Source of the DNA: Domibacillus indicus
GTDB taxonomy: Bacteria; Bacillota; Bacilli; Bacillales; Domibacillaceae
NCBI RefSeq assembly: GCF_023715895.1
Contig: NZ_JAMBOO010000003.1
Coordinates: 1-64,000, forward strand
Length of the DNA: 64,000 nucleotides
Direction of reading: 5' to 3'
Part shown: one piece after another, positions 12,780 to 32,993 of the stretch
How positions within the stretch are numbered: the first letter of the stretch is position 1
Layout: every line of letters starts with the position of its first letter
Program-made: the position numbers and the translations under genes
Notes under the pieces: generated by a model
Database searches by the model: none
Told to the model about the DNA's origin: nothing
Seen by the model: only the letters and a program-made list of their open reading frames with translations

Positions 12780-12905
12780 TTTTTACATTTGTTCAAATAT
12801 AGTCATTTGTTCACTGGCGTAAAATGAATGAAAAAACACGTATTTTCACTCAAATCAAGAAATAAATTAATGATTATCATCCTTTTTTCTTTTTACATTT
12901 GTTCA
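12780..12905. repeat. Direct repeat TTTTTACATTTGTTCA, two copies
   Basis: The identical 16-mer occurs at 12780-12795 and 12890-12905 upstream of srlA set 1. The second copy is part of the operator described next. A further ATTTGTTCA occurs at 12805-12813. They are probably accessory binding sites of the SorC-family regulator, allowing DNA looping over about 110 bases. Confidence 0.55.
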
Positions 12906-12954
12906 TATGTGTTACTTTTGTAATTATATTAATTGATTAAGGAGCAGATTGCAA
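12898..12954 (-). promoter_or_regulatory. Promoter and SorC-type operator of srlA set 1
   Basis: On the minus strand TTGCAA (12954-12949), 17 bases, and TAATAT (12931-12926) form a sigma-A promoter. It is followed directly by TTACAAAAGTAACACATATG and then AACAAA (12923-12898). The same block, TTACAAAnGTAACACnnnTGAACAAA, follows the -10 box of the acoA-like promoter at 32937. Placement over the start point suits a repressor or sugar-responsive SorC-family regulator. Confidence 0.65.
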
Positions 12955-13000
12955 TAAAAAAGTAAAAAATATCTTAATAGTCGGATAATCTAAAGAACAA

Positions 13001-13044
13001 AAAACCTCTCTTTAAACGGCTTTAGCCTTTTAAAAAGAGGTTTT
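13001..13044 (-). terminator. Hairpin terminator downstream of the SorC regulator gene
   Basis: AAAACCTCTCTTTAAACGGC and its near-complement form a long stem around a short loop, ending in TTTT on both strands. It lies between the regulator gene (stop at 13222) and the srlA promoter, separating the two transcription units. Confidence 0.6.
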
Positions 13045-13221
13045 CAATTTCCTTTTTATTTGTTTTTGTTCGAAAAAATATAGTATTGAACTCCTCCCAT
13101 TTACTTAAGGGGTAAAGTAAGGGTATTAAGGATGTTCCCATTAAAAATTATGAATTTACTCTTATCATTAAGATAGAATGTTCTTCTAACGGAGATGATG
13201 TAGCATCTTAATGAAAAATAA

Positions 13222-14166
13222 TTATCTTAGTAGTGCCAATGCTGTTTGTTCGTCTACAATTAAAGTGTGGAGATACTTGCCCTTTAAAGCTGCCTCCAGA
13301 CTTTCCGCTTTATAGGTACCTTCCACTACACAAATCACATGCGGAATCTCCCTTAATTGCTGTAATGATATTCCGATAATTCTTTCATTCAAATTTCCCT
13401 CAATTGGTGTTCCATCCTGATCAAAAAAACGCGATCCAATATCACCAACTGCTCCTGCTTTTCTTAACTTTTGTATATCTTCTTCCTTTAAGTAGCCAAT
13501 TTCTTTTAAAGTTGAGTTTTTATATGGGCTTCCCATCCCAATCAAGGCTACATCTACATTTTTTCCTTCTTCAAGAATAAGAGAGATATCTTCCGTAGCG
13601 GCAAGGCGCTCTTTTAATTCCACTGTTTCTAGAATTGCAGGAGCATATAAATATGAACAAGTTCCGTTCATTTTTTTAGCAAGTTCATAAGCAAGCTGAT
13701 TCGCATGAATTTCTACCTTTTTAATTCCCATGCCCCCAAAAAGCGGAACGATATTTATATTCTCTCTTCTTTCAAAAGGGTATTCCTTTACCACTTGCGC
13801 AAGGGTGTGTCCCCAAGATATACCGAACTTTTGAACCGAACGATCCAAAGTCTGTGAAAGATAATGAGCTGCCGCTTGTCCTATTGCTTTTCTTGTCATT
13901 TCTGATGTGAGTCCCAGTGTAGGAACAACTACAACTTCTCTTAAGCCAAAACGATTCTCTAGCTGTTTTTCGAGCTCCACCGTGTGTTGACTTTCATCTT
14001 TTATGTAAACTTCAACGACTCCTTCATCTTTTGCTCTTTGAAGCAATTTAGAGATGACAGGGCGTGAGATGCCTATTTTTTTTGCAATTTCTTGTTGCGT
14101 CCATCCATCTATATAATATAGATTTGCTATTTTAACAAGCTGACGCCGTTCTGCCCAGTTCAACAT
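13222..14166 (-). CDS. SorC-family sugar-binding transcriptional regulator (polyol island)
   Basis: The 314-aa protein has an N-terminal helix-turn-helix (GWTQQEIAKKIGISRPVISK, residues about 21-40). It is followed by a SorC/DeoR-type effector-binding domain: FGISWGHTLAQVV, INIVPLFGGMG and DVALIGMGSP. Such domains bind phosphorylated sugars. The ATG at 14166 is chosen because GAGG lies 8 bases upstream; the open frame extends 32 codons further without support. It is the last gene of the large minus-strand polyol block and is closely similar to the regulator at 27115-28092. It is the obvious candidate for the operators at 12898 and 23107. Confidence 0.85.
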   Translation of the reverse strand: MLNWAERRQLVKIANLYYIDGWTQQEIAKKIGISRPVISKLLQRAKDEGVVEVYIKDESQHTVELEKQLENRFGLREVVVVPTLGLTSEMTRKAIGQAAAHYLSQTLDRSVQKFGISWGHTLAQVVKEYPFERRENINIVPLFGGMGIKKVEIHANQLAYELAKKMNGTCSYLYAPAILETVELKERLAATEDISLILEEGKNVDVALIGMGSPYKNSTLKEIGYLKEEDIQKLRKAGAVGDIGSRFFDQDGTPIEGNLNERIIGISLQQLREIPHVICVVEGTYKAESLEAALKGKYLHTLIVDEQTALALLR

Positions 14167-14276
14167 ACCCATCGCCTCATTACTTTTCTTTTTATTATAA
14201 AACAATAACAAATAATTGCGAGCGTTTGCCGCATCGATTAAAGCCATTAAATAATTTATCACTTCTGTCTAAACAA

Positions 14277-14307
14277 AAAAGCATCTGATTTTAACGTCAG
14301 ATGCTTT
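14277..14307 (-). terminator. Terminator after srlB set 2
   Basis: AAAGCATCTGA and TCAGATGCTTT form a perfect 11-bp stem. The minus-strand 3' side continues TTTTTTG. It lies between srlB (stop at 14337) and the regulator gene, so the regulator depends on readthrough or its own promoter. Confidence 0.75.
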
Positions 14308-14336
14308 CGAAATGTCAAAATAGGGCATACCAAATC

Positions 14337-14705
14337 TTATTTATTGCGGCTAAATATAATGCTGGTCCCCGGTTTAATTACTGGCGCTGGTTTAACATCG
14401 ACACAAATGTGTCCGGGAAGATCTGATGAACTGGCTCCGTCAAACTTTAAAGTGGCATGGCCTAAATCTCTAATTGTTTCATTCGCTGTATCCCCTACAA
14501 GGTGAATCCTATAACGTTCGTCTCCGATTGTTAACCAATCACCAACTTTGATCCTATCTATTAATTCCGTCTTCTCATGAACAAAGCAAATATCTCTCAG
14601 CTCAGGCGGCGCACTATCATTAAAAATGACCATAGTATCTTCTTTCAAGAACTCTTCCGCCATTACCCCAATTTCAATGATTTTCGACTCATATAGTTTT
14701 TCCAT
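14337..14705 (-). CDS. srlB: PTS glucitol/sorbitol-type EIIA component (set 2)
   Basis: The 122-aa protein is a glucitol-family EIIA with the probable phosphohistidine in CFVHEKTELID and the signature GHATLKFDGASSSDLPGH. It is more divergent than the other two EIIA proteins, which resemble each other closely. Its EIIC and EIIBC partners (srlA2, srlE2) are at the far end of the same block, 6.7 kb upstream. ABC transporter and dehydrogenase genes lie between them. GGGAGGAT precedes the ATG by 8 bases. Confidence 0.88.
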   Translation of the reverse strand: MEKLYESKIIEIGVMAEEFLKEDTMVIFNDSAPPELRDICFVHEKTELIDRIKVGDWLTIGDERYRIHLVGDTANETIRDLGHATLKFDGASSSDLPGHICVDVKPAPVIKPGTSIIFSRNK

Positions 14706-14798
14706 CTGTTTTATCCTCCCATTATGTTATTCAAGTTCTTACTGCTTGGCGTTTCTTGTTTTAAGAGGGGGATCTAGTAAAAACAAAAGATGTGTTAG

Positions 14799-15842
14799 TT
14801 ATATCCATTCTGGCAATACTACGCTTTTTACCCCTGCTTTTTCTTTGCTTGCTATAAAGGCATTTTGCGTTTCATCGAGCTTAAATCGATGCGTAATAAA
14901 TCTAGAAAGATCAACAAATTTATTATCTATCCATCGTACAGCTTCTCTGTGATCTGATTTAGATGCGCCATGTACACCAGAGATTTTCAATTCTTTGTAA
15001 ATAATCTGGTTAGTGTCCAGCTCTGTTTTCTTTCCTTTCGGGAGCCCGGCAAAAAATAACACATGCCCTTTTTTCTTCACACAGCTTAATGCTTGATTTT
15101 GTGCCTCACCAGATGGGGCAGTAATGATAGAAAAATCAATTCCGTATCCATCTGTTTCTTCTAAAATTCGTTTTACCGGCTCTTCCGTTGTCGGGTCAAT
15201 ACAAACGTCCGCTCCCAAACTTTCCGCAAACTCTCTTCGTGCTTTTGAGCGCTGGACAACAATAATTTTCCCAACACCCATCCTGCGAAGCGCTGCTACA
15301 AACATACATCCGATGGCCCCGGCTCCAAAGATTGCAACCGTTTTCCCAGCCCTGATCGATAACTCCCTTAAACCACTCATAACACACGAAAAAGGTTCGG
15401 AGAGACTAGCTTCTTCAAAAGAAGTATTCTCACTAAATCGGCATATGGAACCGTTTTCAACCATCGTCCGGTTCAATAAAACGTATTCCGCAAAACCGCC
15501 ATCATACTGATAACCAATTGTCCATCCCTGTAAACAATGATGCCCTAAGCCTTCCTGGCAATACTTGCACAAGCCACAAGGCATATGAGCGCCCAGAGCC
15601 ACTCTATCTCCAATGTTAAAGTGATGAACAAGAGCTCCTTTATCAACAATCTCTCCAGCAATTTCATGGCCCATCACTCTGGGCAGGGAAACTCTAGCAT
15701 CCCCATTTTGATAAATACGAAGGTCAGATCCGCACACCCCAACGGATTTGACTTTTAGAAGTATGCTGTGATCATCCACTTGAGGAATGTCTTTTTCACA
15801 AACCTCCAATGTAGATAGAGCAGTAAGAGCTACAGCTTTCAT
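14799..15842 (-). CDS. Zinc-dependent polyol dehydrogenase (sorbitol dehydrogenase-like)
   Basis: The 347-aa protein is a medium-chain dehydrogenase. Catalytic zinc ligands are in GVCGSDLR and MGHEIAGE; the structural zinc cluster is CGLCKYCQEGLGHHC; the NAD(P)-binding motif is VAIFGAGAIGCMF. Members oxidise polyols such as sorbitol, L-iditol or threitol to ketoses. It lies 18 bases after the GlpD-like gene, in the same transcription unit. Because it normally acts on free polyols, it fits better with substrate brought in by the ABC transporter than with PTS-phosphorylated substrate. Exact specificity is unknown. Confidence 0.85.
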   Translation of the reverse strand: MKAVALTALSTLEVCEKDIPQVDDHSILLKVKSVGVCGSDLRIYQNGDARVSLPRVMGHEIAGEIVDKGALVHHFNIGDRVALGAHMPCGLCKYCQEGLGHHCLQGWTIGYQYDGGFAEYVLLNRTMVENGSICRFSENTSFEEASLSEPFSCVMSGLRELSIRAGKTVAIFGAGAIGCMFVAALRRMGVGKIIVVQRSKARREFAESLGADVCIDPTTEEPVKRILEETDGYGIDFSIITAPSGEAQNQALSCVKKKGHVLFFAGLPKGKKTELDTNQIIYKELKISGVHGASKSDHREAVRWIDNKFVDLSRFITHRFKLDETQNAFIASKEKAGVKSVVLPEWI

Positions 15843-15860
15843 CTTGGCACCTCCATTATT

Positions 15861-17540
15861 CTAATTAATTTCAATTCCTTCAAATTGCAGGGATTTATCG
15901 TACTCCTTGTCAAAGATCGTTTGTTCATTAAAGAGTTGCCCTTCATCCCAACCAAGTTTATTAGAAAACTGATCAATAACAAAACTGATTATTTCTTGAA
16001 TACTCTCTCTTTTGAACAGCAGATAGCCTGTACGTCGATCAAAAAAATCAGTAAGCCGCATAGCCATTTCCTGATCAATGGCATAGCAGGCTTCTGCTGC
16101 AGCTAAAATTTCTTTTATACCATTGTTCTTGTATTCTTCTGATGCGAGAAATTCTTTCACAATATCAATTAACAGCCACGTATTGGTCCCATACCGGTAA
16201 ACAAACTCGGCAGCAAAAGACGTTGGAATATTTAACAGCTGAAATTCATTTTCGATGTTATCTACTAATGCTTCTACCTCCTCATGTGATTTAAATTTTC
16301 CACCTGAGAGCTTTATAGCTTGGGTCATAGAAGAAACTTTTGCAAATTCTCCTTTATTCAACACGTACTCCACTACTCTTTCTGCCATCTTTCTATATCC
16401 TGTCAGCTTTCCGCCAGCAATTGTAATAAGTCCCGATTCTGATTCGAAAATTTCATCTTTCCGTGACATTTCAGCTGGCGGTTTTCCTTCTTCATAAATC
16501 AGCGGCCGAAGCCCAGCCCAGCAGGAAGTAATATCTTTTTGTTTAAGATTAACATCAGGAAACATCCCGTTTACACAATCTAATAAATAATCCACCTCAC
16601 TTTGCTCAACATGCACATTATCAAGATCTCCATGGTAGTCTGTCTCGGTTGAACCAATATACGTACAACCATCTCTTGGAACAACAGCAATCATTCGGCC
16701 CTCTACATCATAATAGATAGACTCATTAACAGGGAATTTATGAAAAGGTACAACAATATGAATTCCTTTAGTTAAATGAAGCCTTTTTCCTTTGATTTCT
16801 CCTTCTATCCTGCGCACAGTATCAACCCATGGTCCACCTGCATTTATAACGTATTTTGCATAAATCTCAAATGTACGTTGGGAAATAAGATCTTTCGCTA
16901 TAACTCCGATTACCTTCCCCTTATCATTCATAATAAAATCAGTCATTTGCGTATAATTACAAAGGCGAGCTCCGTGCTCAAAAGCGGTCTTCGCAACTTC
17001 CAATGTTAACCGGCTGTCATCTGTTCGGTATTCAATATACATACCTCCACCGCTTACCTGTTCCTTACTGAATAAAGGTTCTTGTTGAAACACTTCTTTT
17101 TTCGAAAGCATAACATGCCTTTCGTGCTTCTGAACTCCTGCCAGCTTGTCATATGTTGATAATCCCAGTTTTAATGTAACTTTATTGAAGCTCCCATTCT
17201 TTACAATAGGAAACAACATTTTAACAGGTATAACCAGATGCCTGGCATTTTTATGCACAATTGCACGCTCATTGCCAACCTCTCTCACAAGCCCCAAGTC
17301 ACCCGTTTTTAAATACTTAAGCCCTCCGTGTATTAACTTCCCAGACTTGCTGCTTGTTCCTGAGCCAAAATCACTTTTCTCAATTAGCCCAGCGTTAAAC
17401 CCTCTTGACGCAAAATCCAAAGCAATTCCAGTTCCAGTTATCCCACCTCCTACTATTAGAACATCAAGTTCACGATTAGCCATTTCTTCAAGCATTTCAT
17501 TTCTTTTTTGAGCGGAAAAGCTTTGTTTATTTTTCAGCAC
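15861..17540 (-). CDS. GlpD-family FAD-dependent polyol-phosphate dehydrogenase
   Basis: The 559-aa protein follows aerobic glycerol-3-phosphate dehydrogenase. It has the FAD-binding VLIVGGGITGTGIALD, then SSKSGKLIHGGLKYL, YIEYRTDDSRLTLE, TKGIHIVVPFH and IAGGKLTGYRKMAE. GlpD passes electrons to the quinone pool at the membrane. The GTG at 17540 is preferred because GGAGGG ends 6 bases upstream and it aligns with the B. subtilis GlpD N-terminus; an ATG at 17579 is possible. There is no glpF, glpK or glpP nearby. The setting in a polyol PTS/ABC block suggests a paralogue acting on another polyol phosphate, as EryB does in erythritol catabolism. That is inference. Confidence 0.8.
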   Translation of the reverse strand: MLKNKQSFSAQKRNEMLEEMANRELDVLIVGGGITGTGIALDFASRGFNAGLIEKSDFGSGTSSKSGKLIHGGLKYLKTGDLGLVREVGNERAIVHKNARHLVIPVKMLFPIVKNGSFNKVTLKLGLSTYDKLAGVQKHERHVMLSKKEVFQQEPLFSKEQVSGGGMYIEYRTDDSRLTLEVAKTAFEHGARLCNYTQMTDFIMNDKGKVIGVIAKDLISQRTFEIYAKYVINAGGPWVDTVRRIEGEIKGKRLHLTKGIHIVVPFHKFPVNESIYYDVEGRMIAVVPRDGCTYIGSTETDYHGDLDNVHVEQSEVDYLLDCVNGMFPDVNLKQKDITSCWAGLRPLIYEEGKPPAEMSRKDEIFESESGLITIAGGKLTGYRKMAERVVEYVLNKGEFAKVSSMTQAIKLSGGKFKSHEEVEALVDNIENEFQLLNIPTSFAAEFVYRYGTNTWLLIDIVKEFLASEEYKNNGIKEILAAAEACYAIDQEMAMRLTDFFDRRTGYLLFKRESIQEIISFVIDQFSNKLGWDEGQLFNEQTIFDKEYDKSLQFEGIEIN

Positions 17541-17613
17541 TGCCATCCCTCCAAAATAAATTTCATTACTCTGCTCCATTTTCAGCTGAAGACTCCTAAC
17601 TTACAGCCCTTTA

Positions 17614-18609
17614 TTATTCTCTTTTGACTCTCGCTCTGAATTGATCTAGCGTAATGGCAAGTAGGACAACTACGCCAACGATTACTCGCTCCCAGTAAGC
17701 TGAAATACTTAGCAAAACAATCGCATTTGCTAACACACCCATTAGTGCAGCACCAAAAATGGTTCCAATAATCTTACCTTGCCCACCCATTAAGGAAGTT
17801 CCACCAATAATGGCAGCTGTAATAGAAGCCATTAACCATCCTTCACCGATTTGAGGCTGGCCGGCACCTAATCGAAGCATCATTAACACGCCCGCTAATG
17901 CTGCAAATGTGCCAGAAAGGGCATAAACCATAATTTTCGTTCTATCAATGCGGATTCCTACAAGTGTTGCAGCTGATTCATTGCCGCCAATCGCGTAAAT
18001 ATGTCTGCCAATAGGAGTAGATGTCAAAACATAAATCAAAACAATGCCCAAACCAATCATAATAATACCTGGCACAGGAGCCGGTCCGACCATTCCTTGT
18101 CCCAAGAACAATACTTTTTGAGGAACCCCTGAAAGCGGCCATCCTTGAGTAATGACCATAATGAGTCCAAAGAAAATCTCACCCATAGCTAACGTCACAA
18201 TAAAAGGATTTAAATTTAATTTTGTTATTAATAGTCCATTGATTGATCCACAAAGCGCTCCAAATAGCAGGCTAAGAACTAAGCAGATGTAAGGGTCGAG
18301 CCCCGTATTTAGCATTAACCAAGCACTTATAATTCCAGAAAGCCCCGCTATCGCTCCAACCGATAGATCAATCCCCCTTGTTAAAAGAACTAAAGTCTGT
18401 CCCATTGCAATGATAGCTACAAATGAGAATTGTCTCACCAGTACACCCATATTATAAGAATCTGCAAAACTGGGTGCTACGAAGGTCAGCAGCAAACACA
18501 TGGCAATTAACACTCCAAATATTCCACTCTCAGTGGAGTTGAACATTTTCCCGAATTTTGCAGCAGGTTTTAATGTTGGAATCGCTTTGTTTTCCATCTC
18601 CATTTTCAT
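17614..18609 (-). CDS. RbsC-like sugar ABC transporter permease
   Basis: The 331-aa protein is a polytopic permease of the ribose/xylose/erythritol type. It shows the characteristic LTRGIDLSVGAIAGLSGI motif and the C-terminal GGTSLMGGQGKIIGT segment that contacts the ATPase. It forms the channel through which the substrate delivered by the binding protein at 20196 crosses the membrane. GGAGGAG precedes the ATG at 18609. The gene lies 15 bases after the ATPase gene. It is unusual for such a transporter to be embedded in a PTS operon. Confidence 0.88.
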   Translation of the reverse strand: MKMEMENKAIPTLKPAAKFGKMFNSTESGIFGVLIAMCLLLTFVAPSFADSYNMGVLVRQFSFVAIIAMGQTLVLLTRGIDLSVGAIAGLSGIISAWLMLNTGLDPYICLVLSLLFGALCGSINGLLITKLNLNPFIVTLAMGEIFFGLIMVITQGWPLSGVPQKVLFLGQGMVGPAPVPGIIMIGLGIVLIYVLTSTPIGRHIYAIGGNESAATLVGIRIDRTKIMVYALSGTFAALAGVLMMLRLGAGQPQIGEGWLMASITAAIIGGTSLMGGQGKIIGTIFGAALMGVLANAIVLLSISAYWERVIVGVVVLLAITLDQFRARVKRE

Positions 18610-18624
18610 ACTGACTCCTCCTTG

Positions 18625-20118
18625 TTAACTTAATGCACCTTTTAATAGCTCTTCTTGTGTTGTAGTTTCAGCATTGTAAAACCCTTTCGCTTCCCCCTGA
18701 TGCATAACCATAATTCGATCGGAGAGATTAATCACTTCTTCCAATTCAGATGAAATCATAATGACAGCTAAACCTTCATCCGCAAGCCTATGAATAAGGT
18801 CATGAATTTCTGCTTTTGCATTTATGTCTATCCCTCTCGTAGGCTCATCGAGAATTAATACTTTAATATCTTTTGCTAACCAGCGTGCCAAAATGACTTT
18901 TTGCTGATTTCCCCCGCTTAACAATCGAATATGTTTTTCTGGAGAAGATGTTTTTACTTTTAGCTCTTTTATATACTTCAAAGCTAAATCCTCTTCCCTT
19001 TTTCGGTTTATCCGTGTAAATCGAGTCATCGAAGGCAACAGCGGCATAGAAATGTTTTCTCTTATTGACGTAATAGGAAAGATGCCTGACTTTTTTCTTT
19101 CTTCGGGTACATACCCCATCCCCAGATTAATGGCTTTCTTTGGTGATTTTATTTTGACTTTAGACTCATACCAATAAATTTCACCCTGATCCGCTATTGT
19201 TTCCCCAAAAATCGCTCTTACTAATTCCGTTCTTCCAGAACCCACGAGTCCTGCTATGCCCAAAATTTCTCCCTCGTGAAGAGTAAAGCTAATATCTTGA
19301 AATTCCCCATGCCTCCCTAAATTATTGACTTGAAGGACACTTTTCTTATTCAATTGGTTTTTGCGAATTTTTCTTTGAACTTTAAATTCTCTCCCAACCA
19401 TTAAATTGATGATTTCATCCGTATTTGTACTCTTCATATCTATTGTGGTAATTAAATTACCGTCTCTCATTACTGAAACTCTGGAAGAATTTTGTTCAAT
19501 TTCTTCCATATGGTGAGAAATAAAAATAATGGATTTCCCTTCTTCTTTTAATTGAAATAGAATTTTAAACAGCTTTTGCGCTTCTTGAAAAGTAAGAGCA
19601 GCTGTCGGCTCATCCAAAATTAAAATATTAGCGCCGAAGGCCAATGCTCTGGCTATCTGCACAAATTGTTGATAAGCACTTCTTAGTGTGCCGACTTCTT
19701 CCTTAACATCTAACCGAACACCTATTTTTGCTAAAAACTCTTCGGCTTTTTTTTCTGTGGTTTTCCAGTCAATCCTTGGAAATCCTGTTTTAAGCTGCTC
19801 CATTCCAAGAAAAATATTTTCTGCTACCGATAAATTAGGTGCTAAATTTAACTCTTGAGGAACTATACCAATCCCTAAGGATAAGGCGGTCAATGGTGAA
19901 TCAATGGAGACTTTTTGTCCATTCATGAAAATTTCTCCACTGTCTGGCTGCAGCAATCCCATCATTGTACTAACCATTGTACTTTTCCCTGCTCCATTCT
20001 CTCCGACTAAAGCGTGGATCTCACCTGCTCTTAAATCGAAATTTACTTCATTAAGCGCTTTGACTCCTGGAAAACTTTTATTAATATTTTTCATAACTAA
20101 CACGGATTGATTATTCAT
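18625..20118 (-). CDS. RbsA-like sugar ABC transporter ATPase (two nucleotide-binding domains)
   Basis: The 497-aa protein has two tandem ATPase domains. The first has a Walker A GENGAGKSTMVSTMMG and a Walker B ILILDEPTAAL. The second has a degenerate P-loop GLVGSGRTELVRAIFG, the signature LLSGGNQQKVILARWL and ILDEPTRGIDINAK. This is the standard RbsA/XylG layout. The ATG at 20118 is chosen because AAGGGAGG is 7-8 bases upstream; six extra upstream codons are unsupported. It powers import through the permease encoded next. A stem-loop lies between it and the binding-protein gene. Confidence 0.88.
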   Translation of the reverse strand: MNNQSVLVMKNINKSFPGVKALNEVNFDLRAGEIHALVGENGAGKSTMVSTMMGLLQPDSGEIFMNGQKVSIDSPLTALSLGIGIVPQELNLAPNLSVAENIFLGMEQLKTGFPRIDWKTTEKKAEEFLAKIGVRLDVKEEVGTLRSAYQQFVQIARALAFGANILILDEPTAALTFQEAQKLFKILFQLKEEGKSIIFISHHMEEIEQNSSRVSVMRDGNLITTIDMKSTNTDEIINLMVGREFKVQRKIRKNQLNKKSVLQVNNLGRHGEFQDISFTLHEGEILGIAGLVGSGRTELVRAIFGETIADQGEIYWYESKVKIKSPKKAINLGMGYVPEERKKSGIFPITSIRENISMPLLPSMTRFTRINRKREEDLALKYIKELKVKTSSPEKHIRLLSGGNQQKVILARWLAKDIKVLILDEPTRGIDINAKAEIHDLIHRLADEGLAVIMISSELEEVINLSDRIMVMHQGEAKGFYNAETTTQEELLKGALS

Positions 20119-20150
20119 TCTCTTTCCTCCCTTCAAAATAAAGGTCTAGG

Positions 20151-20182
20151 AGACAACCAGCATATTTCTATCCAGGTTGTCT
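20151..20182 (-). other. Intercistronic stem-loop between binding protein and ATPase genes
   Basis: AGACAACC and GGTTGTCT form an 8-bp stem with a 16-base loop, 14 bases after the stop of the binding-protein gene. It has no long T run, so it is more likely a processing or partial-termination element. Such elements keep the binding protein in excess over ATPase and permease. Confidence 0.45.
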
Positions 20183-20195
20183 TTAACAAAAGCGT

Positions 20196-21233
20196 TTATT
20201 TTATCAATTTAAAATATTCTGCATATTCTTTTTGTTTTTCTTCGTACTTTCCTAAGTTTTCTTTTGTGACAACATACGATTCGATTTCATCAATTTCTGG
20301 AACCGATTCACCGTTTGCCAGTGCAACCATATGCTCTATCGCTTTATAGCCAATATCAGGAACATTTTGAACAACCGTTGCTGTTATTACACCTTCTTTT
20401 AAATATTTGATAGTTTCTGGGTCATCGTCCATTCCCATAATCAATACTTCTCCTGCTTTTCCAGCACTTTTCACAGCGCGTGCAGCACCAATTGGATTGG
20501 CCGCATTGTTCGCAAAAATTCCTTTTATATTTGGATGAGCCTGTAAAATGTTTTCTGTTAAAGAAGCGGCTTTTACTAAATCATCATTATCTGCTTGTTC
20601 TGCTACAATTTTAATATCTGGATATTTAGCCATTACTTTTTTAAAGCCTGCTACACGTTCCTTGTGGCTAGGGGCACCTAGTGAACCAAGAAGAATAGCC
20701 ACTTCTCCTTTATAATTCATTTGTTTTGCCATTAACTCAGCGAGCTCTTCTCCATCTTTATCATTGTGGTTGTTTCCAATATATAAGGCCCTTTTACTAT
20801 CCGCTGCATCAGCTTCAAATGTAATAATCTTTGTTCCGTTGTCAACGGCTTGATTGATAATAGGCGTTGTAGATGAAGGATCAAGCGCAGCTACCGCAAT
20901 AACATCCGGCTGCTTTGAGATAGCAGACTCTACTTTTTGACTGTGAACCACTATATCTGCAGTTGGCGGGGCATCCCATTCGAATTCAATATTAATTCCT
21001 TTTTTCTTATAATCTTCTACTGCCCCTAAAGCTCCTGCACGAACTGATTCATACCATGGGTGAATCAATTTTGGTACAAAAACAAACTTATAATTATCTT
21101 TAGGACCTTCTTGAGCCTGACCTGATTGTGAACCGGATGAAGATTCACCACTACACGCTGAGAGTAACAATAGAAGGATCACACTTGTCATGATTAATAA
21201 GCCAAACTTTTTTAGTCGTTTAAAAGATTTCAT
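20196..21233 (-). CDS. RbsB-like sugar ABC transporter substrate-binding lipoprotein
   Basis: The protein (about 345 aa) has a positively charged start, a hydrophobic core and a lipobox LLLLSACSGES, followed by a serine/glycine linker. It is therefore anchored outside the membrane by a lipidated cysteine. The mature part is a periplasmic-binding fold of the ribose type: FVPKLIHPWYESVRAGA, ALDPSSTTPIINQAVDNG and IFANNAANPIGAARAVK. The ATG at 21233 is preferred because GGAGG is 8 bases upstream; an ATG 6 bases earlier is possible. The ligand is unknown; the neighbours suggest a polyol or sugar. Confidence 0.88.
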   Translation of the reverse strand: MKSFKRLKKFGLLIMTSVILLLLLSACSGESSSGSQSGQAQEGPKDNYKFVFVPKLIHPWYESVRAGALGAVEDYKKKGINIEFEWDAPPTADIVVHSQKVESAISKQPDVIAVAALDPSSTTPIINQAVDNGTKIITFEADAADSKRALYIGNNHNDKDGEELAELMAKQMNYKGEVAILLGSLGAPSHKERVAGFKKVMAKYPDIKIVAEQADNDDLVKAASLTENILQAHPNIKGIFANNAANPIGAARAVKSAGKAGEVLIMGMDDDPETIKYLKEGVITATVVQNVPDIGYKAIEHMVALANGESVPEIDEIESYVVTKENLGKYEEKQKEYAEYFKLIK

Positions 21234-21256
21234 TTTCATTTCCTCCCCCTTTTCAA

Positions 21257-21270
21257 TAACAGCGCTTTCA
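21257..21270 (-). promoter_or_regulatory. Weak candidate cre box before the binding-protein gene
   Basis: The minus strand reads TGAAAGCGCTGTTA, agreeing with the cre consensus at 12 of 14 positions. It lies 24 bases upstream of the start codon, in the 160-base gap after srlE2, and could add catabolite control within the operon. Confidence 0.35.
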
Positions 21271-22444: not shown

Positions 22445-22459
22445 AGTGTCCCCTCCCTT

Positions 22460-26114: not shown

Positions 26115-26929
26115 TGAAAACTCCTCTCCATATTTAGTATCTCAATCACATCGTTTGCCGTTTCCTCAATCGCTTTATTAGACACATTGATGATTGGGCA
26201 GCCAACCCGCTTCATAATTTTTTCAGCGTAGTCTAGTTCTTCTAGGATACGGTCGAACCGTGCATAACTGGAATCCTGCTGCAGGCCAAGCTTTTTTAAG
26301 CGTTCCTTACGAATCACATTTAAGCTGTCAGGAGTAATAACAAGGCCTACACACTTATTTTTTGGAATACTAAAAAGTTCAACGGGTGCAGTAACTTCGG
26401 GAACGAGAGGGATATTCGCCACTTTGTACCCTTTATACGCCAGATACATCGAAAGCGGTGTTTTAGATGTACGGGATACACCAATCAAGACAATATCCGC
26501 CTTTAAAATCCCTTCGACATCACGGGCATCATCGTATTTTACAGCGAACTCAATGGCTTCTACCTTCTGAAAATAGCGTTCGTCCAATTTTCTCATTAAA
26601 CCAGGTTCGTGAATGGGTGCCCTCTGAAACGTTGTTGCAAAGGCATTCATTAATGGATGAAGCAGATCCACCGCTAAAATATTCTCTTCTTCAGCCCGCT
26701 TATTTAAATAACTTCTCAGCGAGTCTATTACGATTGTGTAGGCAATAATGGAATTATTTTGTTTGGCTTCCTTAATGACGTTTTCTATATCAGAGACTTC
26801 ATCGACATAAGAATTTTGACGTATTTCAAGCTCTTCTCCGACAAATTGAGTAGCAACCGCCCTTACAACAAATTCAGCCGTTTCGCCAACAGAGTCCGAT
26901 AAAAGATAAACGGTTGCCTTTTTGCTCAT
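26111..26929 (-). CDS. Pyruvate, phosphate dikinase regulatory protein (kinase/pyrophosphorylase)
   Basis: The 272-aa protein is of the DUF299 family (YqfL in B. subtilis). It opens VYLLSDSVGETAEFVVRAVA and carries the P-loop-like GVSRTSKTPLSMYLAYKG at about residues 150-167, then NIPLVPEV. Family members use ADP to phosphorylate, and phosphate to dephosphorylate, a threonine next to the catalytic histidine of PPDK. The gene overlaps ppdK by 4 bases, which confirms the pairing. A good ribosome binding site (AGAGGTGA) precedes the ATG. Confidence 0.92.
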   Translation of the reverse strand: MSKKATVYLLSDSVGETAEFVVRAVATQFVGEELEIRQNSYVDEVSDIENVIKEAKQNNSIIAYTIVIDSLRSYLNKRAEEENILAVDLLHPLMNAFATTFQRAPIHEPGLMRKLDERYFQKVEAIEFAVKYDDARDVEGILKADIVLIGVSRTSKTPLSMYLAYKGYKVANIPLVPEVTAPVELFSIPKNKCVGLVITPDSLNVIRKERLKKLGLQQDSSYARFDRILEELDYAEKIMKRVGCPIINVSNKAIEETANDVIEILNMERSFQ

Positions 26930-27114: not shown

Positions 27115-28092
27115 TTACTTGAAGCTTTTTTCACCTTGCTTTAACTTTGTTTCCTCTAAAACTTTTACGGCAGACGGCTCATCAATAACTAAGACATCAA
27201 TCAATCCTGCTTTTAGAACGCCTATAATACTATCTTTTTTAAAAGTACCTTCTGTTATGGCAATTACAAGAGGGATTCTTTTTAGTTGTTCTAAAGAAAG
27301 GCCTACTACTTTTTCATTTAATGGATGATTGACTGCTTTTCCGCTCTTATCAAAAAAACGAAATCCAATGTCACCAACCGCTCCAGCTTTACAAAGCTCA
27401 TTTAGATCATCGTTTTGTAAATATCCAACTTTCTGTAGTGTTGATTCATACAACGGATTTCCAATGCCAATAACGGCTACTTCTGTGCTTGCGCCTTCTT
27501 CCAATACAGAACGGATGTCGGAAAGTTGCAAAAATTTTTCTTTCATTTCAGCTGACTCCATAATAGCTGGTGCATAAAGGTAAGAACATATTCCCTGCAT
27601 CTTTTTTGACAGTTCGTAAGCAAGATGATTTGAATGGATCTCTATATGGTTGCGGCCAATTCCGCCTTCCAGAGGGACAATTTTTATATTTTCTCTTTTA
27701 TCCAAAGGGTACTGCTGCACCATTTGGGCTAGAGTTGTTCCCCAGGAGATCCCTAACCTGCTTATATTTCTCACTCGCCTTGAAACATAATTTGCACCCG
27801 CTAATGCTACCGCTGCTTTTATTGTTTCTGAATTAGTCGTGTTAACAGGGACTACTACCGCCTCTTTAATACCGTATTCTTCTTCAAGTTGCCGTTCCAG
27901 CTCTACTGTATGAACCGCTTCATCTCGAATGGAAACTTTAACAATTCCATATTCTTTTGCTCTGTGAAGAGTTCTTGCCACAATAGGCCGCGACATACCA
28001 ATTTTCTTAGAGATCTGCGCTTGAGTCCAGCCTCCCTGATAATAAAGCTCAGCCACCTTAACCATAAGGCGTTTCTCTTCTTTTTCAGTCAT
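27115..28092 (-). CDS. SorC-family transcriptional regulator at the end of the aco-type operon
   Basis: The 325-aa protein has a helix-turn-helix GWTQAQISKKIGMSRPIVAR (residues about 20-39). It is followed by a SorC effector domain with LGISWGTTLAQMV, IKIVPLEGGIG and EVAVIGIGNPLYES. It is clearly paralogous to the regulator at 13222-14166; the recognition helices differ only modestly (MSRPIVARTL against ISRPVISKLL). It starts 60 bases after lpdA and is probably co-transcribed. In Bacillus, aco operons are normally driven by the sigma-54 activator AcoR. No AcoR is present here, and a SorC-type regulator takes its place. Confidence 0.83.
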   Translation of the reverse strand: MTEKEEKRLMVKVAELYYQGGWTQAQISKKIGMSRPIVARTLHRAKEYGIVKVSIRDEAVHTVELERQLEEEYGIKEAVVVPVNTTNSETIKAAVALAGANYVSRRVRNISRLGISWGTTLAQMVQQYPLDKRENIKIVPLEGGIGRNHIEIHSNHLAYELSKKMQGICSYLYAPAIMESAEMKEKFLQLSDIRSVLEEGASTEVAVIGIGNPLYESTLQKVGYLQNDDLNELCKAGAVGDIGFRFFDKSGKAVNHPLNEKVVGLSLEQLKRIPLVIAITEGTFKKDSIIGVLKAGLIDVLVIDEPSAVKVLEETKLKQGEKSFK

Positions 28093-28152: not shown

Positions 28153-29544
28153 TTAATTCTTTTGCTCTTTGCGCAACTTGTTGACAACATGAACTGCCGC
28201 TTCAAAAAATGTTTCCGAGATCGTTGGGTGCGGATGAATCATTTTGGCTGCTTCATCCACTGTGCCTTCTAAATACATAAAGGCAGAGGCCTCAGAGATC
28301 ATTTCCGTTACGTGCGGGCCGGCCATCACCACACCGATGATTTCACCGTACTTCGCTTCGTAAATGATCTTCGTAAATCCTTCCGGCTCGCCGGCTGCCA
28401 GCGCTTTGCCGCTTCCGGCAAAATCAAATTTTTCAACCCGTACGTCTATCCCCTGCGCTTTTGCTTCGTCTTCTGTTAAGCCAACCCCCGCAATTTCCGG
28501 CAGTGTATAAATACAGCGCGGCATCACTTTGTAGTCGATTACATCCGGTACGCCGGCTGCATTATTTGCCGCGACGACTCCTTCCGCGCTTGCCGCGTGG
28601 GCCAGCTGCCAGCCGCCGATTACATCGCCGACCGCGTAAACGTTGGGACTGCTCGTTTCCATTCGCTCGTTTACAGCGATAAACGGCCCGTTCATGTCCA
28701 GGTTCAGCTCACCGGATGCAGATACATTCGGCCGTCTTCCTGTGCTGACAAGCAGTGTATCAGCTTCCACCTCAAACTCTTTTTCTTTCGCATCCACACA
28801 GGTGACGATTTTAATCCCGTTTTCTTCCCGCACCGACTGCACTTTCGCTTTTGTTTGAACCGCGACGCCTTTTTTCTTCAGCGCTTTCGTTAACAGCTTG
28901 GCTGCTTCTGCATCCTCTGTCGGTACAATTCGATCCGCTGCTTCCACAATCGTGACCTTTGACTTGAGAGAAGCGAAGATGCAGGCAAATTCTACACCGA
29001 TCACCCCTCCGCCGATAATGACGACGGACTTTGGAATTTCCGGAATATCAAAAATCGTGTCACTCGTATCAAAGTGGACTGAGTCAAGGCCGGGAATTGG
29101 CGGCACAGCCGGCGTTGAACCAGTCGCAACAATAACTTTCTTCGCCAGCATCGTTTCTTCACCGGATTCCGTTTTGACCACGACAAGCCCGCCTTCTTTC
29201 ACCGTGCCGAAGCCGTTATAAACATCGATTTTGCCCTGTTTCAGCAAAAATGCAATGCCGCCGCGCAGCCGTTCAATCACGTCATTTTTCCGCTTTTTCA
29301 TTTTATCGAACGAAAGCGTCATTTCCCCGGTTTCAATACCCCAGTTCTTTGCTTTTTCGATCGATTCTATGATTTCTGCATGCTTGAGCAGCGTTTTAGA
29401 CGGAATGCAGCCGCGGTTTAAGCATGTGCCGCCTAAAAAATCTGGTTCTACTAATGCTGTCCTTTTGCCAAGCTCCGCTGCATGAAGCGCCGCGACATAC
29501 CCACCCGGTCCGCCTCCTACAACGACAATATCGTATGATGTCAT
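28153..29544 (-). CDS. Dihydrolipoyl dehydrogenase (E3)
   Basis: The 463-aa flavoenzyme reoxidises lipoamide on E2 and reduces NAD. It has the FAD motif VVVGGGPGGYVAALHAAELG, the redox-active disulfide GGTCLNRGCIPSKTLL, the NAD-binding VVIIGGGVIGVEFACIF and the interface motif HPHPTISETFFEAA with the catalytic histidine. It is the fourth gene of the E1alpha-E1beta-E2-E3 operon, 12 bases after E2. It is therefore a dedicated E3 (AcoL type) rather than the housekeeping pdhD, which cannot be assessed from this window. Confidence 0.9.
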   Translation of the reverse strand: MTSYDIVVVGGGPGGYVAALHAAELGKRTALVEPDFLGGTCLNRGCIPSKTLLKHAEIIESIEKAKNWGIETGEMTLSFDKMKKRKNDVIERLRGGIAFLLKQGKIDVYNGFGTVKEGGLVVVKTESGEETMLAKKVIVATGSTPAVPPIPGLDSVHFDTSDTIFDIPEIPKSVVIIGGGVIGVEFACIFASLKSKVTIVEAADRIVPTEDAEAAKLLTKALKKKGVAVQTKAKVQSVREENGIKIVTCVDAKEKEFEVEADTLLVSTGRRPNVSASGELNLDMNGPFIAVNERMETSSPNVYAVGDVIGGWQLAHAASAEGVVAANNAAGVPDVIDYKVMPRCIYTLPEIAGVGLTEDEAKAQGIDVRVEKFDFAGSGKALAAGEPEGFTKIIYEAKYGEIIGVVMAGPHVTEMISEASAFMYLEGTVDEAAKMIHPHPTISETFFEAAVHVVNKLRKEQKN

Positions 29545-29556
29545 CAGTTACACTCC

Positions 29557-30891
29557 TTATACAAGCAGCTCATATGGATTTTCTAAAATGTCTTTCAGCT
29601 CCGTTAAAAAGGCGGCTGCCGGTGCTCCATCAATCACACGGTGGTCAAATGACAAGCTGAGTGTCATCATCGGCCGGATTTCAAGCGCTCCGTTTACCGC
29701 AACTGGCTTGTCCTGCATCCGTCCTACGCCTAAGATGGCGCTTTCCGGCTGATTAATGACCGGCGTAAACATATCAACGGCATACATACCAACATTGCTG
29801 ATCGTAAACGTGGACCCTTTCATTTGATCAGGGAGCAGCTTATTTTCACGCGCCCGCTGGCTGATTTCTTTTGCATCCTGTGTCAGCTCCGCCAGCCCCT
29901 TAGCGAGCACATCTTTAATGACCGGCACCATTAAGCCGTCCGCCACCGCTACGGCAAGGCCAAGGTGAACGTGGCCGTGCTGGACGATTTCATCGCCTTC
30001 AAGCGATACGTTGATTTCTGGATGCCGTGCTAGAGCTGCGGCTGTTGCTTTCATTAAAATTTCTGTGTATGACAAGCGGAAGCCCGTCTGCTTTTCCACA
30101 ATCGGCAGAAGCGATGCACGCAGTTCTTTTACTTTTGTCATATCAATCTCGCTCGTCATCGTGACGTGAGGTGCTGTCTGCTTGCTCTGTACCATACGTT
30201 CAGCGATCACTTTACGCATACCCGACATTTTTTTGCGCGTCGATGTATCCGCAGCAGGCACTGTTGTGCGTTTGGCGGAAATCACATCCTGCTTCACGAC
30301 TTTGCCATTGGCGCCGCTTCCCTGCACAGTGGACAAATCGACACCTTCTCCTGCCGCAACCTTGCGGGCAAGCGGTGTTGCTTTCGCCTCAGCCGGACTG
30401 CCCTCTGTGTGAGCGGTTACGTCTTTTTTATGCACGCGTCCGTTCGGGCCGCTTCCCTGTACCTCACGAAGCTCGATTCCTTCTGTCCGGGCAAGATGCC
30501 GGGCAGCTGGGGTTGCCCGCGGTTTTTCACCATCCGCCAGTGTCTGCGCTGTTGATGCTTCGGCTGGCTGTGCAGCAGTCGATGCTTCAGCTGGGGCGTC
30601 TTCTTCTTGCTCCGAACCAGATACACCCGGTGCTTCTTGTGGCACAGCTTCTCCTTCGGTTCCAATGTAGCCGATTACATGATTGACCGGCACCTGGTCA
30701 TCTTCCCCGAAATATCGCTTTAATAAAATGCCTTCGTCATATGACTCTACTTCAATATTGATTTTGTCCGTCATAATTTCAAAAAGCGGCTCGCCAATGT
30801 CGACGCTGTCTCCCTCTTCCTTAAACCATTGAAGGAGGGTTCCCGTTTCCATTGTGCTGCTCAGCTTTGGCATAAAAATTTCTTTCGCCAT
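29557..30891 (-). CDS. E2 dihydrolipoamide acyltransferase with tandem E3/E1-binding domains
   Basis: The 444-aa E2 has one lipoyl domain (residues 1-80, lipoylated Lys43 in MTDKINIEVES) and an Ala/Pro/Glu-rich linker. It then has two peripheral subunit-binding domains in a row: about 126-158 with VQGSGPNGRVHKKDV and about 171-203 with VQGSGANGKVVKQDV. The catalytic domain runs from about 218, with the active histidine in SFDHRVIDGAPAAAF. Most E2 proteins have a single binding domain, so the duplication is notable. In an acetoin dehydrogenase complex it transfers the acetyl group to CoA. GGAGGGAG precedes the ATG. Confidence 0.88.
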   Translation of the reverse strand: MAKEIFMPKLSSTMETGTLLQWFKEEGDSVDIGEPLFEIMTDKINIEVESYDEGILLKRYFGEDDQVPVNHVIGYIGTEGEAVPQEAPGVSGSEQEEDAPAEASTAAQPAEASTAQTLADGEKPRATPAARHLARTEGIELREVQGSGPNGRVHKKDVTAHTEGSPAEAKATPLARKVAAGEGVDLSTVQGSGANGKVVKQDVISAKRTTVPAADTSTRKKMSGMRKVIAERMVQSKQTAPHVTMTSEIDMTKVKELRASLLPIVEKQTGFRLSYTEILMKATAAALARHPEINVSLEGDEIVQHGHVHLGLAVAVADGLMVPVIKDVLAKGLAELTQDAKEISQRARENKLLPDQMKGSTFTISNVGMYAVDMFTPVINQPESAILGVGRMQDKPVAVNGALEIRPMMTLSLSFDHRVIDGAPAAAFLTELKDILENPYELLV

Positions 30892-30906
30892 CGTTCTCCC
30901 TCCTTC

Positions 30907-31914
30907 TTACTTGTTTTTCACCGTTTCTTTTACAGCCGCAATAATATCCGGCACCTGCGGTGTTGCCGCTTTTTCAAGTGTCGGGTTGTACGGAATTGGC
31001 ACTGCCAATCCGCCCAGGCGCTTGATCGGCGCGTCTAGGTAGTCAAATGCTTCACTTTCCGCAATCATACTAGCAATTTCCCCGCCAATACCGCCACGCT
31101 TCACCGCTTCATGGGCCACAATAAGGCGTCCCGTTTTCTTGACAGACTCAATAATGGTTTCTTCATCGAGCGGCACAATCGTGCGCGGATCGATAACTTC
31201 AACACTGATGCCTTCTTTTTCGAGCTCTGCGGCTGCTTCAAGCGCTTTATGAACCATAATCGCTGTTGCGACAATCGTTACGTCTGTTCCTTCCCGCTTT
31301 ACGTCAGCTTTTCCGAGCGGAATAGAGTATTGTTCTTCCGGCACGTGACCAGATGTTCTGTATAGCAATTTATGTTCGTAGAAAACAACTGGGTTATCAT
31401 CATCCATCGCTGCTTTTAGAAGTCCTTTTACATCGTAAGCTGTAGAAGGCTGGACCACTTTCAATCCTGGAATGTGCGCCATCCACGCTTCTAAGCTTTG
31501 CGAGTGCTGGGCAGCCGCGCCTGTTCCAGACCCAGCCGGTGTGCGAAGCACCATTGGCACTTTTCCTTTACCGCCAAACATATAACGTGTTTTCGCGGCC
31601 TGGTTGACCATCTGGTCCATGGCAATTGTAATAAAGTCCGAGAATTGCAGTTCCAAAATCGGACGCATACCCGTCAAAGCCGCCCCAACCGCTGCACCGG
31701 AAATCGCCGCTTCTGAAATCGGTGTATTGCGCACACGCTCCGGACCAAACTCTTCAATCATGCCGCGCGTGACACCGAATGCACCGCCGTATACTCCTAT
31801 ATCTTCTCCAAGAATAAATACATCGCTGTTTTGGCGCATTTCCTGGCTCATCGCTTCTCGAACGGCTTCTAAATACGTAATCTCTCTTGTTTTTTCCGCT
31901 GTTGTCGTTGTCAT
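30907..31914 (-). CDS. Acetoin dehydrogenase-type E1 beta subunit
   Basis: The 335-aa protein is the beta chain of a thiamine diphosphate-dependent E1. It contains [20 protein letters not shown], the FADFI-equivalent [20 protein letters not shown] and a C-terminal transketolase fold with [16 protein letters not shown]. With the alpha chain it cleaves acetoin (or a 2-oxo acid) and reductively acylates the lipoyl group of E2. GGAGGGACG precedes the ATG. Gene order alpha-beta-E2-E3 equals acoABCL of B. subtilis. The sequence alone does not prove acetoin as substrate. Confidence 0.85.
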
Positions 31915-31933
31915 CTTTATCGTCCCTCCTATT

Positions 31934-32917
31934 TTACGCGTACACGTCTTCTTCTAAAGTATCAATCGATGGTTCTGGGCTCGCTTCCGCAAAACGTACC
32001 GCTTCTTCAATTTCCTGATTGGCTTCTTTCTGCAAGGTTTTCGCCTCTTCTTCGGTGAAGACACCCGCTTCGATCAGCGTTTCCTTAAAACGTTTAATAC
32101 CGTCTTTCGCTCTCCACTCATTTTCTTCCTCACGCGTACGGTATTTTTTCGCATCGCTTTTTGAGTGGCCTTTCCAGCGGTATGTTTTCATTTCAATCAA
32201 TGTCGGTCCGTTGCCCTCACGTGCATTTTGAACCGCCGCGTCTACCGTATTCATAATGTCAATCATGTCGCAGCCATCAACGATTTTACCTGGAATCCCG
32301 TAACCCGCCGCGCGGTCCGCAATGTTTTCTACACGTGTCATATCTTTGACAGGGCCGGACATGCCGTACTGATTGTTTTCACAAATAAACACAACTGGCA
32401 AATCCCAAATAGCCGCAAGGTTGACGGCTTCATGAAAGCTTCCTTCATTGGACGCCCCGTCTCCAAAGAAGCAGAGTACTACATAATCCTCATTTCTCAT
32501 TTTGGATGTTAAGGCTGCTCCAACTGCAAGTGGAATGCCGCCGCCTACGATCCCGTTCGCACCCAAGTTGCCTTTTTCTACGTCAGCAATATGCATCGAG
32601 CCGCCTTTCCCTTTACAGTAACCGGTTTCACGTCCAAAAAGCTCAGCCATCATTTTATTGACGTCGCCTTCTTTAGAAATACAGTGCCCATGGCCACGAT
32701 GAGTAGAAACAATTTTGTCTCTCGATTCAAGTACGGCGATCGATCCAGCCGCTGATGCTTCCTGTCCGACGCAAAGGTGCGTTGTCCCGTGAATAAGCCC
32801 CTTTGCAAAAAACTGGTCTACTTTTTCGTCAAAGTAGCGGATCAGCCACATTTCTTTATACAAATCTTTTAGTTTTTCATCCGTGATCGAAGTAGGCAGC
32901 TTTAGTTTTGTTACCAT
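31934..32917 (-). CDS. Acetoin dehydrogenase-type E1 alpha subunit (TPP-dependent)
   Basis: The 327-aa protein has the thiamine diphosphate motif [20 protein letters not shown] with ENNQYGMS, and the substrate-side segment [20 protein letters not shown]. The last is typical of AcoA and distinguishes it from branched-chain E1 alpha. It begins the operon; GGGAGGAT lies 7 bases before the ATG. The promoter (TTGACT, 17 bases, TAAGAT) and a SorC-type operator are 20-76 bases upstream of the start. The operator ends only 20 bases before the ATG. Regulation by the downstream SorC-family protein is therefore likely. Confidence 0.86.
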
Positions 32918-32936
32918 GATTAATCCTCCCTTTACT

Positions 32937-32993
32937 TTTGTTCAGTCGTGTTACATTTGTAAAAATCTTATACTGTATGTGTGATTAAGTCAA
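32937..32993 (-). promoter_or_regulatory. Promoter and SorC-type operator of the aco-type operon
   Basis: On the minus strand TTGACT (32993-32988), 17 bases, and TAAGAT (32970-32965) form a sigma-A promoter. TTACAAATGTAACACGACTG followed by AACAAA (32962-32937) comes directly after it. This agrees with the operator of srlA set 1 at all fixed positions of TTACAAAnGTAACACnnnTGAACAAA. No sigma-54 type -24/-12 promoter of the usual aco kind was seen. Confidence 0.68.

Follow-up and report, generated by a model that had tools for sequence, protein, structure and literature searches.

A conserved operator joins a glucitol-type PTS operon and a TPP/lipoate complex operon in Domibacillus indicus: a predicted 2-C-methylerythritol regulon

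In Domibacillus indicus, an operon for a glucitol-type phosphotransferase system (PTS) beginning with srlA1 and an operon for a thiamine pyrophosphate (TPP)/lipoate dehydrogenase complex (E1alpha-E1beta-E2-E3) are linked by a shared 32-bp operator that is real and conserved in other genera. Both operons lie within the 64,000 nucleotides analysed here (the window; positions 1-64,000 of contig NZ_JAMBOO010000003.1, assembly GCF_023715895.1). The srlA1 operon ends with a gene (9276-10565, 429 aa), left unnamed in an earlier note on this DNA, that encodes a DXR type II protein (DXR-II) predicted to interconvert 1-deoxyxylulose 5-phosphate (DXP) and methylerythritol 4-phosphate (MEP). We consider it likely that the two operons form a single regulon for the uptake and breakdown of 2-C-methylerythritol (ME), a five-carbon plant and airborne alcohol.

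Operator sites and SorC regulators

That a polyol PTS operon is linked to one for a TPP/lipoate complex was first proposed in the earlier note from a repeated promoter motif, and the present results support it. Both described copies, at 12923-12898 and 32962-32937 of the reverse strand, matched TTACAAANGTAACACNNNTGAACAAA with 0 mismatches. A search of the 5.08-Mb D. indicus genome (5,082,398 bases, 180 contigs) with up to 3 mismatches gave 4 matches, and a reversed-pattern control of the same 26-base motif gave 0 matches in the whole genome. The other two matches were on contig C126, one (1 mismatch) located 15 bp upstream of a second E1alpha-E1beta-E2-E3-SorC operon and one (2 mismatches) 15 bp before gutM in an operon of gutM-srlA-srlE-srlB and a gene for a 429-aa protein. 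All four matches precede only two operon types, each in two copies, and the proposed link therefore exists twice in one genome.

Around the 26-mer the likeness continues over a near-palindrome of 32 bp (12892-12923 and 32931-32962). A spacing of 17 bp between the -35 and -10 elements was confirmed at the three promoters for which it had been reported (srlA1 TTGCAA/TAATAT; E1alpha TTGACT/TAAGAT; srlA2 TTGACT/TACAAT). The operator was said to follow the -10 directly in each case, which is true of srlA1 and E1alpha, where it starts 2 nt downstream, and suggests repression. The third copy, before srlA2, is unconvincing: TTACAAATGT and TTGTTCAG are present and the 19-bp period is kept, but the site scored 3.6 bits with the refined matrix described below, which is within background.

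Phylogenetic footprinting with a matrix built from the 4 D. indicus sites identified sites of at least 20 bits in 28 of the 34 named loci outside Domibacillus, and 53 sites in all across these 34 loci compared with a mean of 0.0 in 10 dinucleotide shuffles. The consensus operator is TTACAAANGTaA-N7-gAACAAATGTAAA, an imperfect 32-bp palindrome. A refined matrix located 104 sites in 37 of 39 loci, none within mapped genes; it was trained on the same loci, and the counts describe placement rather than significance. The gene following the site was E1alpha (34), gutM (28), srlB (13), a GlpD-like gene with a relative in the srlA2 operon of the window (11), SorC (11), DXR-II (4) or srlA (1), and for 2 of the 104 sites no mapped gene lay within 400 bp. 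Other genera have the genes in one cluster, with the operator kept before E1alpha, gutM, srlB or DXR-II. In genome G139 the complex operon is located 240 kb from the glucitol PTS (gut PTS)/DXR-II operon and has a 44.3-bit operator 14 bp upstream of E1alpha.

An origin of the shared operator by chance or by a recent non-functional duplication has a negligible probability. The four sites in the D. indicus genome could partly stem from duplicated operons, but the site is kept in most of the loci from other genera, is absent from the shuffles and has a fixed place after the -10. A chance motif was ruled out by its rarity in the genome together with its conservation in relatives.

Two SorC-family genes had been reported in the window (13222-14262 and 27115-28092). 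Both were confirmed, SorC1 and SorC2 carrying the Sugar-bind domain PF04198 (262 and 245 bits) and an N-terminal helix-turn-helix (HTH), although the genome holds eight such genes in total. The cluster-linked SorC proteins of the compared Bacillota families, including SorC1 and SorC2, group in a single clade of 58 rows whose HTH regions are closely similar (SRPxI/VSK core). This similarity hints that the SorC proteins may bind the shared operator, though it is suggestive only, and with one clade and similar HTH regions it is therefore plausible that SorC1 and SorC2 cross-talk.

In 28 of 31 loci a loose cre-like pattern was also present in the 160 bp preceding gutM, a count made without a control; the one in L036 has no real cre core.

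DXR type II and the TPP/lipoate complex across genomes

The 9276-10565 protein contains the DRL_cat domain PF21135 (233 bits, cut-off 27), the NAD-binding domain PF03447 and the SAF domain PF08666, and shares 43% identity with Brucella DXR type II (3UPY/3UPL). PMC3847144 splits the wider family into DXR-II, 11 members of which were shown to produce MEP, DLO1 and DLO2; Thr229 and Arg320 are given there among the sites separating DXR-II from the DLO families, and Lys191 and Lys193 as binding fosmidomycin. These four residues (K191, K193, T229 and R320 in Brucella numbering) were kept in all 61 DRL rows that had a glucitol PTS or E1 gene no more than 9 kb away, and T229 was lost in 7 of the 22 unlinked rows. 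Not every listed DXR-II site agrees, as the V351 site is Q in the window protein.

Gene association was computed directly from two sets of genomes. Scanning the named genomes yielded 36 DXR-II loci, and the genera represented include Domibacillus, Lysinibacillus, Metabacillus, Priestia, Oceanobacillus, Ornithinibacillus, Virgibacillus, Lentibacillus, Marinococcus, Salibacterium, Salinicoccus and Candidatus Hakubella. At a distance of up to 9 kb from DXR-II, the gut PTS was present in 32 of the 36 loci, E1 in 28 and both in 26, and an E1 or E2 gene was found somewhere in the fetched locus in 33 (all except L008, L009 and L038). The Oceanobacillus group has the genes in a single run of SorC-gutM-srlA-srlE-srlB-DXR-II-E1alpha-E1beta-E2-E3. 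Of 398 evenly sampled Bacillota genomes, 39 carried DRL_cat. Among the 43 sampled DRL loci outside the D. indicus genome, 24 had the gut PTS within 9 kb and 17 of these had E1 as well. The seven loci with the gut PTS only included two near contig ends (L094, L098), that of G139 with its complex elsewhere, and four from genomes with no E1alpha at E 1e-30. In two Bacillota genomes the cluster is followed by a PTS enzyme I gene (L097 2623-4350) or a lipoyl-synthase-like radical SAM gene (L092 15742-16608).

The complex had been labelled acetoin dehydrogenase-type, a label that is probably wrong, as its E1alpha differs consistently from canonical AcoA. The comparison was made with a canonical AcoA/AcoB set of 30 loci picked by similarity to the AcoA of the D. 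indicus genome, the only genome in which the activator gene was checked. Fifteen E1alpha positions at least 90% conserved within each set differ between the cluster type and canonical AcoA. One loop reads HS[KR]SD in 49 of 49 cluster E1alpha proteins, HFEGD in 30 of 30 canonical ones and HSMSD in human pyruvate dehydrogenase (PDH), and the HFEGD form occurred in none of the 49. A lysine or arginine in place of the AcoA glutamate would suit a phosphorylated substrate. Among other E1alpha proteins from 41 chosen genomes the cluster-type loop was present in 3 of 30, all three in DXR-II genomes, and among 27 further loci in 18, all except G353 in DXR-II genomes. In the 398-genome sample, 18 genomes including the query genome had an E1alpha scoring above 400 bits to that of the window and all 18 had DRL_cat (hypergeometric 9e-21, uncorrected for kinship and with the 400 cut set after the list had been seen). 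Elsewhere in the D. indicus genome is a canonical aco operon with a neighbouring sigma-54 activator gene, and the window E1alpha is 50-51% identical to its AcoA. Acetoin catabolism is disfavoured as the job of the complex, given this operon and the differing E1alpha residues.

The G353 locus (L227 6717-11458) has HSKSD-type E1alpha, E1beta and E2 genes adjoining a xylose-isomerase-like gene and may encode a related complex that acts on a different 1-deoxyketose.

A biosynthetic role for DXR-II was examined through the isoprenoid genes of the same genomes. The D. indicus genome has DXR-I (540 bits, cut-off 316) and IspG, and therefore does not need DXR-II for isoprenoid synthesis; its contig C66 carries another two DXR-II-like genes. 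Among DRL genomes, DXR-I was present in 34 of 57 tested and IspG in 37 of 44 tested (in G041 only as two partial pieces). The seven genomes without IspG were Ornithinibacillus caprae (L013), Oceanobacillus limi (L014), O. chungangensis (L016), Virgibacillus subterraneus (L019), Lentibacillus halodurans (L024), V. salexigens (L042) and G244. None of these seven had DXR-I, all had the gut/DXR-II/E1 cluster, and all had a bacterial HMG-CoA synthase above the TIGR01835 cut-off of 360 (518-564 bits); seven other tested genomes had no PF01154 match above its cut-off. In the seven genomes MEP is therefore no isoprenoid precursor and DXR-II does something else.

DXR-II as an isoprenoid enzyme is accordingly rejected for the seven genomes, and a second role is possible where IspG occurs without DXR-I. 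That DXR-II generally serves isoprenoid synthesis or ME salvage, its co-regulation with the complex being incidental, is very unlikely. Some gut/DXR-II genomes do have IspG and no DXR-I, where DXR-II may feed synthesis, and in L118 ispD and ispF follow DXR-II, though adjoining cysS. The seven cluster genomes and the DXR-I and IspG genes of D. indicus argue against it, as does the presence of the same operator before a catabolic complex in many genera.

In L118 (8276-10975) the pair, both genes above their cut-offs, lies directly after DXR-II and before cysS, and an IspD/IspF pair is also located downstream of DXR-II in the Salinicoccus loci L033, L034, L035, L037 and L038. The usual locus is ispDF-gltX-cysS, and cysS is the usual place for ispDF. 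From the order of open reading frames (ORFs) mapped in three loci, the Salinicoccus neighbourhood looks like an accident of the insertion site. IspD/IspF neighbours were considered weak as proof that the PTS yields MEP.

A third island on contig C66 (L091 4552-19048) has two near-identical DXR-II genes at its ends and includes SorC, gutM-srlA-srlE-srlB, a DeoR-type regulator, transketolase, transaldolase, RpiB, a homologue of the pyruvate, phosphate dikinase (PPDK) regulator and a HAD phosphatase. Apiitol was dropped as its substrate, since the PTS subunits are 89-94% identical to srlA1/srlE1 and the DXR-II groups with that of the E1-linked L127.

A predicted route for 2-C-methylerythritol and its alternatives

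The operator and its conservation, the gene association, the family and residues of DXR-II and its non-isoprenoid role in seven genomes are shown by computation. As to which substrate is used, in which direction DXR-II runs, what the complex does and which ligand and sign the regulator has, we infer the following course. The srlA1-srlE1-srlB1 PTS would take in ME and phosphorylate it to MEP; uptake of ME by a PTS is reportedly not without precedent. DXR-II would then run against its biosynthetic direction, converting MEP to DXP with a gain of NADPH, and the TPP/lipoate complex (28153-32917) would split DXP to acetyl-CoA, NADH and glyceraldehyde 3-phosphate. Because DXP shares the CH3-CO-CHOH- unit with acetoin, the complex could cleave it as acetoin dehydrogenase cleaves acetoin, in effect the DXP synthase reaction in reverse, made oxidative. 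With a PTS giving MEP and an enzyme linking MEP and DXP, the route closes if the complex splits DXP. A SorC-family repressor on the 32-bp operator would keep both operons closed until a phosphorylated intermediate (e.g. MEP or DXP) binds. The parts of the pathway belong to known families, and their combination and chemistry are new to our knowledge. No ME catabolic pathway was found among the matches listed for the literature searched, and a combined query for deoxyxylulose, acetoin dehydrogenase and glucitol gave no match; most subscription journals were outside the scope of both.

Several observations weigh against this route. The equilibrium of DXR favours MEP, and the reverse direction needs a strong pull. 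The four DXR-II residues are all kept in 15 of the 22 unlinked DRL rows and are therefore no mark of a catabolic form. In the even sample, 19 of the 43 DRL loci lacked both the gut PTS and E1 within 9 kb. Four genomes (G339, G199, G296 and G174) had the gut PTS and DXR-II with no E1alpha at E 1e-30, so that MEP or DXP must go elsewhere there; one of the four is that of L118, where ispD/ispF follow DXR-II in the gut PTS operon. G353 has the HSKSD E1alpha and no DRL match. The window E1alpha scores just over the pyruvate dehydrogenase model TIGR03182 (394.2 vs 393.85), and in the C66 island the same PTS and DXR-II occur together with genes for transketolase and transaldolase.

The last two points favour a different reading in which another polyol is imported, the DXR-II homologue is a polyol-phosphate dehydrogenase that passes a ketose phosphate to central metabolism, and the complex is an extra inducible PDH. 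The HSKSD loop does resemble HSMSD of human PDH more closely than HFEGD of AcoA, and RpiB also accompanies DXR-II in the third island. This reading is rather unlikely: the DXR-II residues are intact in every linked row, 11 members of the family are reported to make MEP (PMC3847144), and the cluster would have no enzyme for the 1-deoxy product. Moreover, the lysine or arginine of the loop is missing from human PDH and from 27 of the 30 other E1alpha proteins. It is also unlikely that the same logic serves another 2-C-branched polyol, e.g. another methyltetritol or apiitol. The analysis gives no stereochemistry, and the GlpD-like and Zn-alcohol dehydrogenase genes that share the operator or the cluster in relatives hint at more than one polyol. 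However, ME is the one branched polyol for which both PTS uptake (by the title of a paper) and a phosphate that is a DXR-II product are on record, and apiitol would lead to xylulose 5-phosphate, for which no acetyl-forming complex is needed.

A broader form of the ME route, doubtful at present, is a general 2-methyltetrol pathway that accepts both 2-methylerythritol and 2-methylthreitol. In it, the GlpD-like flavoprotein would pair with the Zn-alcohol dehydrogenase to invert C3 of 2-methylthreitol 4-phosphate by oxidation and then reduction, giving MEP; C3 adjoins the phosphate-bearing carbon, as in glycerol 3-phosphate. If this were true, bacteria would use both 2-methyltetrols of isoprene aerosol, tying isoprene emission to soil and leaf bacteria.

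The predicted ME pathway, if true, would add a substrate class (2-methyltetrols) and a reaction (oxidative acyloin cleavage of DXP to acetyl-CoA), and would represent a bacterial sink for compounds that are reported as isoprene aerosol markers. It would also explain the seemingly redundant DXR-II of some bacteria. In two papers (PMC13001223, PMC3847144), DXR-II is seen as an alternative biosynthetic enzyme with a scattered distribution, the only pattern being an overrepresentation in some pathogens. A catabolic role within a conserved PTS/TPP-complex regulon offers a testable pattern for this distribution.

Neighbouring genes and comparison with known systems

The features of the window are collected in Table 1. 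SrlA1 and SrlE1 scored above curated cut-offs and the IIA domain PF03829 was found, placing the system in the glucitol PTS family, with TIGR00849 below its cut-off. No sorbitol-6-phosphate dehydrogenase (srlD/gutD) was among the scanned operon genes srlA1, srlE1, srlB1 and DXR-II. No gutM match was found at 12575-12891 of the window, and in the second copy (L006) gutM stands between the operator and srlA. A partial-looking DNA methylase ORF (7754-9049) is located between DXR-II and a further IIA gene (6959-7348).

The region 13222-22990 is an operon in which genes for a divergent glucitol PTS are combined with those for a ribose-type ABC transporter, a GlpD-like flavoprotein and a Zn-alcohol dehydrogenase. 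In the Oceanobacillus group, homologues of the latter two adjoin the DXR-II cluster and operators are found before the GlpD-like gene. PPDK and its regulator (23448-26929) are directly downstream of the complex operon on the same strand and could remake phosphoenolpyruvate (PEP), as the PTS would use up the one PEP obtained from glyceraldehyde 3-phosphate. The stretch separating the two C126 operons (L005 16174-19383 and L006 15-4591) has genes encoding another SorC protein, an MtlR-like regulator, a galactitol-type PTS IIC, a Zn-alcohol dehydrogenase and two SDR proteins, and in G139 (L196) the complex operon is flanked by genes similar to these.

Table 1. Coordinates of promoter elements and genes in the window and the basis of each assignment
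Feature	Position	Strand	Basis
DXR type II (DRL), predicted MEP/DXP reductoisomerase	9276-10565	-	phmmer 3upy/3upl E 1.6e-108; PF21135; residues
srlB1, PTS glucitol-type IIA	10568-10966	-	PF03829 130 bits, cut-off 25; TIGR00849 108 bits, below cut-off 190
srlE1, PTS glucitol-type IIB/IIBC	10982-12019	-	NF049924 501 bits, cut-off 400; PF03612, PF07663
srlA1, PTS glucitol-type IIC	12041-12574	-	NF049923 244 bits, cut-off 150; PF03608
Possible weaker operator-like element, srlA1 leader	12782-12813	-	Period 18 not 19; 13.5 bits, 1.1 bits with refined matrix
32-bp operator upstream of srlA1	12892-12923	-	26-mer with 0 mismatches; 42.7 bits with refined matrix
-35 TTGCAA of srlA1 promoter (17-bp spacer; -10 TAATAT at 12926-12931)	12949-12954	-	Sequence
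SorC1, SorC-family regulator	13222-14262	-	PF04198; tree
PTS glucitol-type IIA, second operon	14337-14705	-	PF03829
Zn-dependent alcohol dehydrogenase	14799-15842	-	Profile match; homologues beside DXR-II cluster in Oceanobacillus group
GlpD-like flavoprotein	15861-17579	-	Profile match; homologues carry operator in relatives
Ribose-type ABC transporter: binding protein, ATPase, permease	17614-21239	-	Profile matches
srlA2 and srlE2, divergent glucitol-type PTS subunits	21401-22990	-	Below curated cut-offs
Degenerate operator-like site, srlA2 promoter	23108-23139	.	3.6 bits, within background
Pyruvate, phosphate dikinase, possibly linked	23448-26114	-	TIGR01828 1403 bits, cut-off 843
PPDK/PEP-synthase regulatory kinase-phosphorylase, possibly linked	26111-26929	-	NF003742 321 bits, cut-off 225
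SorC2, SorC-family regulator, last gene of complex operon	27115-28092	-	PF04198; tree
E3 dihydrolipoyl dehydrogenase	28153-29544	-	TIGR01350 538 bits, cut-off 409
E2 acyltransferase, lipoyl and E3-binding domains	29557-30891	-	Profile matches
E1beta	30907-31914	-	Family match; comparison with AcoB set
E1alpha, HSKSD-loop type	31934-32917	-	TIGR03182 394.2 bits, cut-off 393.85
32-bp operator upstream of E1alpha gene	32931-32962	-	26-mer with 0 mismatches; 36.1 bits
-35 TTGACT of E1alpha promoter (17-bp spacer; -10 TAAGAT at 32965-32970)	32988-32993	-	Sequence

Four known systems resemble parts of the predicted regulon. The srl/gut PTS operons are alike in their IIC, IIB and IIA components, which score above NCBIfam/Pfam cut-offs, with gutM and SorC present in many relatives; they differ in that DXR type II replaces sorbitol-6-phosphate dehydrogenase and that a TPP/lipoate complex is co-regulated. 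The acetoin dehydrogenase complex (acoABCL with AcoR) has the same E1alpha/E1beta/E2/E3 layout and the proposed cleavage of a CH3-CO-CHOH-R substrate would be the same, whereas the 15 diagnostic E1alpha positions differ and SorC replaces the sigma-54 activator. Brucella DXR type II (3UPL/3UPY) is alike in domains and key residues at 43% identity and is known as a biosynthetic enzyme, whereas the window DXR-II is placed in a predicted catabolic regulon of a host that has its own DXR-I. Regulators of the CggR/DeoR/LsrR type (SorC family) share the Sugar-bind domain PF04198 and the N-terminal HTH, and CggR and DeoR, like the regulator expected here, have a long operator at the promoter. The window system differs from them in its new operator, TTACAAANGTAA-N7-GAACAAATGTAAA, and in the new content of its regulon.

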